DNA of 64,000 nucleotides from Aquabacterium lacunae (GTDB taxonomy: Bacteria > Pseudomonadota > Gammaproteobacteria > Burkholderiales > Burkholderiaceae_C): positions 186,001-250,000 of the forward strand of contig NZ_SIXI01000001.1 in NCBI RefSeq assembly GCF_004310865.1, written 5' to 3'. Each line of letters starts with the position of its first letter. The stretch's first letter is position 1. Shown piece after piece: positions 52,448 to 55,188 of the stretch. A model generated the notes under the pieces. That model was not told the DNA's origin. It did not search any database and saw only the letters and a list, made by a program, of their open reading frames with translations. The position numbers and the translations under genes are program-made.

Positions 52448-52464
<17 letters not shown>

Positions 52465-54367
52465 TGGCCTGCTGCACGGTCTGCACCAGGGCTTCGAGCG
52501 ACATCACGCCCAGGTCCTGGTTGCCGCGGGCCCGCACGGCCACGGCACCGGCTTCCTTTTCCTTGTCGCCCAGCACGATGAAGTAAGGCACCTTCTGCAC
52601 CGCGTGCTCGCGGATCTTGTAGGTGATCTTCTCGTTGCGGGTGTCCAGCTTGGTGCGGATGCCGGCCTTGGTCAAGGCCGCGGCCACTTCGCGGGCGTAC
52701 TCGGCCTGGGCGTCGGTGATGTTCAGCACCACGGCCTGCACGGGCGACAACCACACGGGCAAGGCACCCGCGTGCTGCTCGATCAGGATGCCGATGAAGC
52801 GCTCCAGGCTGCCCAGGATGGCCCGGTGCAGCATGACCGGGTGCTTGCGGTCGCTGGCTTCGGTCACGTACTCGGCGCCCAGGCGTTCGGGCATCGAGAA
52901 GTCGACCTGGATGGTGCCGCACTGCCAGTGGCGGCCGAGTGCGTCTTTCAGCGTGTACTCGATCTTGGGGCCATAGAAGGCGCCGTCACCGGGGGCGATG
53001 GTGAACTCGCTGTTCGTGGCGCGCAGCGATTCCATCAGGGCGTTCTCGGCCTTGTCCCACACCTCGTCGGAGCCGATGCGCTTTTCAGGGCGCGTGGCCA
53101 CCTTGTAGATGATGTCGGTGAAGCCGAAGTCGGCATACACCTTTTGCAGCAGCGCGGTGAAGTCCACGCACTCCTGCAGGATCTGGTCTTCGGTGCAGAA
53201 CACGTGCCCGTCGTCCTGCGTGAAGCCGCGCACGCGCATGATGCCGTGCAGCCCACCCGTGGGCTCGTTGCGGTGGCACTGGCCGAACTCGCCGTAGCGC
53301 ACGGGCAGGTCACGGTAGCTCTTGAGCCCCGAGTTGAAGATCAGGATGTGACCCGGACAGTTCATCGGCTTGAGCGCGTAGTCGCGCTTTTCCGACTCGG
53401 TGGTGAACATGTTCTCGCGGTACTTGTCCCAGTGACCGGTCTTTTCCCACAGGGTCTTGTCGATGATCTGCGGGCCCTTGACTTCCTGGTAGCCGTTGTC
53501 GCGGTACACCTGGCGCATGTACTGCTCGACCGCCTGCCACACCGTCCAGCCCTTGGGGTGCCAGAACACCACGCCCGGCGCGTGCTCGTCGATGTGGAAC
53601 AGGTCGAGTTCCTTGCCCAGCTTGCGGTGGTCGCGCTTTTCCGCCTCTTCCAGACGGGTCAGGTACAGCTGCAGGTCGTCCTTGCTGGTCCAGGCCGTGC
53701 CGTACACGCGCTGCAGTTGCTCGTTGCGGTGGTCACCGCGCCAGTAGGCGCCGGCCACCTTCATCAGCTTGAAGTGCTTGAGCTTGCCGGTGCTGGGCAC
53801 ATGGGGGCCACGACACAGGTCGGTGAAGTTGCCTTCGCTGTACAGCGACACGTCTTCCCCTTGGGGGATGGCCTCGATCAGCTCGGCCTTGTAGTGCTCA
53901 CCCAGACCCTTGAAGTAGCTCACAGCCTCATCGCGCGGCAGCACCTTGCGGGTCACGCGCTCGTCCTTCTTGGCCAGCTCGGCCATCTTCTTTTCGATGG
54001 CAGCCAGGTCTTCGGGCGTGAAGGGGCGTTTGTAGGCGAAGTCGTAATAGAAGCCGTCTTCGATGGTCGGGCCGATGGTGACCTGCGCCTCAGGGAACAG
54101 CTCCTTGACGGCGTAGGCCAGCAAGTGGGCGGTGGAGTGGCGGATGACGTCGAGGCCATCGGCGTCCTTGTCGGTGACGATGGACAGCGCGGTGTCGGCT
54201 TCGATCAGGTGGCTGGTGTCAACCAGACGGGCGGCATCACCGCGGCCCACGCGGCCTGCCAGCGCAGCCTTGGCCAGACCGGTGCCAATGGATGCGGCCA
54301 CATCGAACACGGTGACCGGACCGGGAAATTCACGTTGGGAGCCGTCAGGCAGCGAAATGGTGATCAT
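52448..54367 (-). CDS. thrS: Threonine--tRNA ligase
   Basis: 639 aa class II synthetase. A TGS domain (1-65, [18 protein letters not shown]) precedes the SAD editing domain with its HxxxH ([11 protein letters not shown]). The catalytic core includes the zinc Cys in [12 protein letters not shown] and the motif 2 region [11 protein letters not shown]-like [18 protein letters not shown]. The anticodon-binding domain is at the C-terminus. The frame is open 20 codons upstream, but the ATG at 54365-54367 is the family start; a terminator hairpin occupies that upstream stretch. Probably attenuated by the leader described separately. Confidence 0.96.
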
Positions 54368-54384
54368 GATTTTGAATCGGACAG

Positions 54385-54412
54385 AAAAAAAGCGCGGAGG
54401 GCGCCGCGCTTT
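54385..54412 (-). terminator. thrS leader terminator (attenuator)
   Basis: AAAGCGCGG (54412-54404 on the minus strand) pairs with CCGCGCTTT (54397-54389) around a 6-nt loop, followed by seven U residues, ending 17 nt before the thrS start. Just upstream, GCTTTC (minus 54441-54436) is the exact complement of GAAAGC at the 5' side of the terminator stem (minus 54413-54408), a possible antiterminator. The placement inside the thrS 5' leader points to transcription attenuation. Confidence 0.75.
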
Positions 54413-54454
54413 CCAGGGTTCGAACAAGGATGTGCGAAAGCAGCGGCCAGCCCA

Positions 54455-54502
54455 CTAGACCTCGGGCGAGGTGAACAGGGAGGTGGGAGTTCGCGGTGTC
54501 AT
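54455..54502 (-). CDS. thrS leader peptide, threonine-rich
   Basis: A 15-codon frame (MTPRTPTSLFTSPEV, stop TAG) with Thr codons at positions 2, 5, 7 and 11, ending 42 nt before the terminator stem and upstream of thrS on the same strand. AAAGG lies 11 nt before the ATG. This is the layout of ribosome-mediated attenuation: stalling at Thr codons when charged tRNA-Thr is low would favour an antiterminator. I am not aware of a described thrS leader peptide of this kind in Burkholderiales; translation is unproven. Confidence 0.5.
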   Translation of the reverse strand: MTPRTPTSLFTSPEV

Positions 54503-54660
54503 AACCTGGAGTGCCTTTCTACGGTCCTTACCTGGGTTGCACGAGGTGCGGCATGCACTTTGCTCACATTGTAGTGGAGCACCAACCCATGATGCTCTTT
54601 TGCCCTGCATGCAACTCAACGCCCATTCACGCCCATTCACCCTGACCACCGCGCACCACC

Positions 54661-55188
54661 ATGACCCTCACGCAGTACCCCGCCCCAGACGAACGCACCG
54701 TGAACATCTGGCTGGGCTGGGCCCATGAGGTGGCCGAACGTGCGCAGGCGCAAGGCCATCACCCATTTGGTGCCGTGCTGGTGGGCCCGCAGGGCAATGT
54801 GCTCATGACCCAAGGCAATGTGGACACCGTGAACCACGCCGAAGCAGTGCTGGCGCGCCGGGCAGCCGAGCGCTTTTCGCCGCAGTTCCTGTGGCACTGC
54901 ACTTTGGTGACCACCGTGGAGCCATGCGCCATGTGCGCAGCCACCCAGTACTGGGCCCACATTGGGCGGGTGGTGTACGGCATGGGCGAGCACCGCCTGC
55001 TGCAACTGACCGGCAACCACAGCGAGAACCCCACGCTGGCCCTGCCCTGCCGCGAAGTGTTCGCCCGCGGACAAAAAACTGTGGAGGTGGTGGGCCCGGT
55101 GGCCGCGATGGAAGATCGGATCGCCAGCCTGCACATGAACTTCTGGCAGCGCACGCCTGCGCCGACCGGACATGAACTGAAGGCGTGA
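54661..55188 (+). CDS. Nucleoside/nucleobase deaminase (CDA family)
   Basis: 175 aa zinc deaminase. His59-Ala-Glu61 (NHAEAV) supplies the first zinc ligand and the proton shuttle; Cys89 and Cys92 in EPCAMC complete the site. The sequence is closer to stand-alone guanine/cytosine deaminases than to TadA, lacking the TadA LEPCVMCAGA block, so the substrate is likely a free base or nucleoside. It is divergent from thrS and ends at a bidirectional terminator. Confidence 0.85.
   Translation: MTLTQYPAPDERTVNIWLGWAHEVAERAQAQGHHPFGAVLVGPQGNVLMTQGNVDTVNHAEAVLARRAAERFSPQFLWHCTLVTTVEPCAMCAATQYWAHIGRVVYGMGEHRLLQLTGNHSENPTLALPCREVFARGQKTVEVVGPVAAMEDRIASLHMNFWQRTPAPTGHELKA

Follow-up and report, generated by a model that had tools for sequence, protein, structure and literature searches.

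The region upstream of thrS, the gene for threonyl-tRNA synthetase, in Aquabacterium lacunae very probably encodes a ribosome-mediated transcription attenuator with charged tRNA-Thr as its signal. Such a control had been proposed in a first-pass annotation of the window (the whole analysed stretch of 64,000 nucleotides), and the proposal is supported by what sequence and statistics point to: a short leader frame with a putative ribosome-binding site, a bias of this frame towards threonine, a predicted terminator, a predicted antiterminator pairing that is mutually exclusive with it, and a pairing segment (segment 2) placed close to the leader stop codon. The following features were assigned before and at thrS.

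54568 to 54573, minus strand: candidate -10-like box TACAAT, a possible promoter of the leader transcript
54514 to 54520, minus strand: predicted ribosome-binding site of the leader frame, AGAAAGG, assigned by position and conservation
54489 to 54506, minus strand: core GGTTATGACACCGCGAAC, almost invariant, across the leader start
54455 to 54502, minus strand: leader frame MTPRTPTSLFTSPEV followed by a stop, 15 codons, with Thr at codons 2, 5, 7 and 11
54436 to 54447, minus strand: segment 2, GCCGCTGCTTTC (GCCGCUGCUUUC), predicted antiterminator partner, 8-19 nt past the leader stop
54403 to 54413, minus strand: segment 3, GAAAGCGCGGC, the terminator 5' arm and predicted partner of segment 2
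54384 to 54413, minus strand: predicted intrinsic terminator, 9-bp stem AAAGCGCGG/CCGCGCUUU plus U tract, -13.4 kcal/mol
52448 to 54367, minus strand: thrS, threonyl-tRNA synthetase, 639 aa, with its start ATG at 54367

The leader frame starts with ATG at 54502 and continues for fourteen further codons to TAG at 54457-54455. The frame of 15 codons with four Thr codons given in the first-pass annotation was located exactly at 54502-54455 on the minus strand, and both spacings given there were also exact, namely 42 nt from the leader stop codon to the start of the 9-bp terminator stem at 54412, and 17 nt between the final U at 54385 and the thrS ATG at 54367. The AGAAAGG before the leader, presumably complementary to the 3' end of 16S rRNA, was conserved among the 150 loci with leaders of the MTPRT class, of which 127 contained GAAAGG and 105 the complete AGAAAGG. 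Further upstream, a TANAAT box was found at -110 to -30 of the leader start in 98 of the 147 relatives of the MTPRT class whose upstream sequence was long enough, compared to 4.6 in base shuffles. No full sigma-70 match was found in a scan of 54200-54800 of the window. No ribosome-binding site was evident before the thrS ATG of the window (54388-54368, TTTTCTGTCCGATTCAAAATC-ATG), unlike L032 and L033, where GGAG was observed at the usual place, and translation of thrS in the window may have a weak or different start. A frame that by eye resembles a deaminase is located upstream of the leader at 54661-55188 on the opposite strand. The end of the leader frame (54472-54459) contains a small hairpin, ACCTC-GCCC-GAGGT, for which the congeners L003-L005 have ACCTC-GACC-GAGGT.

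The fold and terminator-scan statistics of the window were ordinary, and the single sequence therefore proves little. One terminator-like site was found in 54200-54800 compared to 0.4 expected, and folds of the single whole leader were not unusual (z -0.17 and -1.02). Among the curated RNA families (Rfam, gathering scores) only tRNAs were detected in the window, with no T-box or other leader. In 14 loci searched with the same collection at E<=0.5, the matches were tRNAs and, below threshold, HPnc0260, asX2 and BSnc120; no leader family was among them. The leader was not found in plasmid records. The ordinary fold statistics of the window are in agreement with a hairpin and Thr codons occurring together by chance in DNA rich in GC. 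This explanation is hardly credible, as it was refuted by the comparison with relatives in conservation, Thr enrichment and codon pattern. The strong case for an attenuator is the comparative one.

Conservation of the leader was studied with the 292 nt before thrS as query in 299 genomes of the family (E<=0.01), and the region was matched in 225 of these. Among the matches listed, most did not extend beyond a block with the first five leader codons and the ribosome-binding site, and a few covered the terminator only. The thrS gene of the window showed 82% identity (best segment) to its closest named relatives, and a thrS match at E<=1e-100 was found in 108 of 110 genomes of the order. L283 and L286 were excluded by hand (wrong stretch), and L112, L114 and L156 were excluded because the thrS start was absent or scored too low. 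L057 contained only a few bases before thrS. Removal of duplicates reduced the upstream regions from 275 to 266, and a stem search without false-positive control gave a terminator-like hairpin in 248 of them.

The amino acid content of short frames was studied in 230 of the 266 regions; of the others, 18 had no terminator found and 18 had less than 40 nt left. Each short frame upstream of the terminator was scored for all 20 amino acids, with dinucleotide-preserving shuffles as background. At least four Thr in six codons were found in 37% of the 230 loci, compared to 0.2% of the shuffles, and other amino acids were nowhere near this level. The loci of the family were partly picked by similarity to the leader block, and this count, as well as the pairing, position and codon figures given below, leans towards the core. 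The Thr count was repeated on sets collected by the thrS protein alone, which avoids choosing loci by the leader itself. These sets consisted of named loci (the best 80 of 585) and of regions from other families of the order. At least four Thr in six codons were observed in 20 of 67 named loci (from the best 80 of 585) compared to 0.27% of shuffles, and in 8 of 47 loci of the other families compared to 0.13%. Glu was also in excess in the named set (best 80 of 585), with at least three in six codons in 9 of 67 loci compared to 1.0%, perhaps because of the tails of upstream genes. A leader rule, set after the sequences were seen, held for 44 of the 80 named loci (best 80 of 585) and for 22 of the 69 loci of the order; it failed in 23 of the 67 named loci (best 80 of 585) with a usable terminator.

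The codon pattern of the MTPRT class points in the same direction. Thr was present at codon 6 in 102 of 150 loci, with all four Thr codons in use, and at codon 7 in 92 of 150, mostly as ACC. In the named subset found by thrS (best 80 of 585) the corresponding numbers were 23 and 21 of 37. In the 150 loci, the third base of codon 6 clearly varied more than the other two, and that of codon 7 slightly more. A lack of reading-frame conservation, which the first-pass annotation had named as refuting its reading, was thus not observed at codon 6 and less clearly so at codon 7. Only the two core Thr were present in some leaders (L279 and L280). An RTTTT centre was shared by leaders of other families with unrelated starts, as in L275 (MAVRTTTTHP), L287 (MSFRTTTTGTLNQG), L228 (MQLNRTTTTS) and L096 (MFKRTTTTRISR); RTTTT leaders with two ATG codons were read from the inner ATG. 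The first-pass annotation had regarded relatives with a retained terminator and no Thr frame as evidence against its reading. Most of the matches listed did cover the start of the frame, but three loci were of the opposing kind. In L045 and L046 (Limnohabitans) and in L048, a promoter-like TAAAAT and a GC-rich terminator are located directly before thrS without a Thr leader, as if the sensor had been lost and the terminator kept.

A pairing of GCTTTC (54441-54436, minus strand) with GAAAGC on the 5' side of the terminator stem had been proposed as antiterminator. The pairing was correct, and the match extends beyond these six letters. GCCGC(U)GCUUUC (54447-54436) can form 11 pairs, with one bulged U, with segment 3 (54413-54403). 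The energy of this 2:3 duplex was -19.9 kcal/mol for the longer arm and -15.1 kcal/mol for the arm of the shuffle test, compared to -13.4 kcal/mol for the terminator stem, and the duplex was equalled by 2 of 100 spacer shuffles. The letters of segment 2 and of its partner are identical in the congeners L003 and L005, and L004 keeps most of them. Pairing was tested in 170 loci. The centre of the best 2:3 duplex was located 0-18 nt past the leader stop in 78% of these, compared to 39% in spacer shuffles. The footprint of a ribosome waiting at the stop codon would cover this stretch, and the position of the duplex therefore fits a simple reading of the switch, in which segment 2 is either covered or free.

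Segment 2 and the terminator arm of the same locus paired better than permuted partners (159 distinct loci, z -3.6, 0 of 2000), and one position beside the shared CGCG was found to co-vary in the 83 loci of the anchored test (63 paired compared to 38.9 expected, 0 of 5000), with G-C in 35 and T-A in 21; neither test takes relatedness into account. No co-variation was observed at the five other of the six helix positions tested in these 83 loci. The co-varying stems suggested as a check in the first-pass annotation were thus found at one position and in the permutation, but not along the rest of the helix. The 2:3 duplex reached the 5% shuffle level in only 24% of the 150 MTPRT-class loci and 5% of the 20 others, and in these 20 leaders without the MTPRT core the permutation was not significant (z -0.84). 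Support for the predicted antiterminator, which would exclude the terminator, is moderate. A 1:2 pause helix, the classical first helix formed by the leader frame with segment 2, was unsupported in the MTPRT class, both against shuffles (z -0.09) and against permuted partners (z 0.18). Permutation gave a hint only of 1:2 pairing in the 20 other leaders (z -2.1). By eye, a 1:2 helix was clear in L053 (GCGAACTAC with GTAGTCCGCG) and in L042 (CGCGAAC with GTTCGCG).

In the circuit that we infer, transcription would start about 60 nt before the 15-codon frame with its strong ribosome-binding site. With plentiful Thr-tRNA, the leading ribosome would proceed to the leader stop (54457-54455) and cover part of segment 2, whereby segment 3 would be left free, the terminator (54413-54384) would form and transcription would end before thrS. 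With scarce Thr-tRNA, the ribosome would stall on the early Thr codons and leave segment 2 free for pairing with segment 3 (11 bp, one bulge), and the blocked terminator would allow transcription of thrS.

By a looser rule, the leader was found in 14 of the 50 families of the order other than that of the window. This tally may err either way, as some loci of f23, f35, f39 and f47 were picked by the core and the matches of L213 and L257 may be chance, and as each of f8 and f32 was counted as lacking the leader from a single locus, though other genomes of both carry it. A tRNA gene (mostly tRNA-Val, anticodon by eye) is located immediately 5' of the Thr leader in L215, L216, L217, L229, L275 and L287, which suggests that tRNA, leader and thrS may share a transcript in these loci. 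In L311, from a genome outside the order, a frame MSTTTAQR with stop codon is followed by a U-tailed hairpin before thrS (by eye), and this leader may have an independent origin. Two thrS-like genes per genome were observed in G330 and G374 (family f33), the second copies having 57 and 54% identity to thrS of the window.

The terminator could alternatively end the transcript of an upstream small RNA or tRNA, in which case the leader would be a small protein with a job of its own and thrS would be transcribed from a promoter elsewhere. The presence of a tRNA gene directly before the leader in a number of other families and the conservation of the core GGTTATGACACCGCGAAC beyond coding need would both fit such an arrangement. 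A small protein is, however, difficult to reconcile with leaders of the MTPRT class, in which little except Thr is conserved beyond the MTPRT start and the length varies from 10 to 29 codons. The order of frame, terminator and thrS recurs in other families, and a segment 2 adjoining the leader stop is unexpected for a plain terminator. An upstream transcript ending before thrS is for these reasons improbable, and attenuation by a ribosome on the leader is the preferred reading.

The core itself is conserved at third codon positions as well as in the 4 nt before the ATG. Codons 2-4 were ACA in 148, CCG in 149 and CGA in 139 of the 150 loci, and codon 5 was ACT or ACG and never ACC in the 150 MTPRT-class loci. 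GTT was present before the leader ATG in nearly all, and the base preceding it was G, or C in 12 of 167. With at most two mismatches, the core gave a single match in the genome of the window, which was perfect and located at the leader. Of 399 genomes of the order, 87 contained the 18-mer with at most two mismatches; only the exact and one-mismatch matches in this figure count, as a reversed control pattern also scores at two mismatches. In thrS of the 37 named carriers (best 80 of 585), ACA and ACT made up 4% and 5.5% of the Thr codons and CGA 4% of the Arg codons. ACA and CGA were absent from two genes of the window, thrS and a 438-aa frame that resembles isocitrate lyase. No convincing hairpin was seen by eye within the core.

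The conservation of the core exceeds what the peptide requires. CGCG is found again in the pairing segments of many relatives and may account for some of the constraint, and the rest may be due to a series of slow codons or to an RNA site. It is conceivable, though doubtful, that the core GGTTATGACACCGCGAAC provides a second functional input beyond the Thr codons, either as a rare-codon series or as a factor-bound RNA site, which would time the ribosome relative to RNA polymerase or read more than threonine. If true, an attenuator with a start region fixed at the RNA level across families and a drifting remainder would be a new variant of the leader peptides.

ThrRS of E. coli and other gamma-proteobacteria represses its own translation by binding to a mimic of the tRNA anticodon arm upstream of the gene. 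The same control could operate here, with ThrRS binding its own leader RNA via a tRNA-like arm and blocking translation, and with the Thr frame as an incidental feature. The arm was modelled as a hairpin of five or more pairs whose loop contains NGU, located within 100 nt of thrS. The class-level set was drawn from 53 genomes with thrS; the best 30 of 53 places were used, one of which is the window, and 28 were readable. A loop of exactly 7 nt was found in 3 of 28 class-level loci (best 30 of 53 places). A 9-nt loop ending in GTA was found in 11 of 28 (best 30 of 53 places) and in 1 of 266 Burkholderiales regions, and missed E. coli. The final model, which accepts GT[AG] and leaves the third loop position free, was loosened after the E. 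coli control had been seen; it detected E. coli and, from outside the order, 12 of the 28 thrS leaders (0.3 expected; best 30 of 53 places). Inside the order it matched 6 of 266 regions compared to 3.65 expected, which is chance level, and five of the six were terminator stems and the sixth was weak. No arm was found in the window region by the arm-model search.

The contrast to E. coli drawn in the first-pass annotation holds: E. coli has the arm, as do 12 of the 28 leaders from outside the order (best 30 of 53 places), and inside the order the arm is at chance level. The order thus appears to be without the operator, in place of which the leader is found in many of its members. Binding of ThrRS to the leader RNA would moreover leave the Thr codon bias unexplained, and despite its occurrence outside the order it is a very unlikely explanation for the window. 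With a Thr attenuator in this position, thrS would seem to have passed from control sensed by a protein to control sensed by the ribosome.

With an attenuator of this kind, an essential gene would have its control circuit described for much of the Betaproteobacteria, to which the E. coli ThrRS model seemingly does not apply. The patchy distribution of the leader can be placed on a tree, and a leader frame as short as this is easily missed in annotation. The leader would also be a ready reporter for the charging of threonine tRNA.

Compared to known systems, the E. coli thrS operator concerns the same gene and differs by the binding of a protein to an RNA mimic of the anticodon arm, which is at chance level in this order. 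E. coli thrL (Rfam Thr_leader) responds to Thr and Ile and regulates biosynthesis genes. Like thrL, the thrS leader contains Thr codons and is followed by a terminator, and it differs from thrL in that no Thr_leader match was found in the window (gathering score) or in the 14 loci (E<=0.5). The pheM leader of the E. coli pheST-ihfA operon, annotated as a leader peptide in E. coli, is a ribosome-mediated attenuator of an aminoacyl-tRNA synthetase operon. The two have in common a short frame with cognate codons, an intrinsic terminator and a synthetase gene located 3'. The present leader, unlike pheM, is directed to threonine instead of phenylalanine and to thrS, and has a nearly invariant core and a predicted antiterminator segment right past the stop. 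In a passage of PMC1262725, pheST is named as a gamma-proteobacterial example of leader-peptide control. In the part of PMC8079986 that treats Streptomyces lividans, a thrL before thrS is proposed, with a leader frame to sense threonine; it is described there as an 18-aa, leaderless frame with two Thr and, according to the authors, no clear terminator. The S. lividans peptide printed in that part is by eye unlike the leader peptide of the window. No thrS leader attenuator of Betaproteobacteria was recognised in the accessible parts of the open-access literature, and one may be predicted by Lopatovskaya et al. 2010 (Mol Biol 44:128; cited in PMC4833913 and PMC10272879). Ribosome-mediated attenuators of synthetase genes are already known, and the thrS leader would add a threonine member to them.
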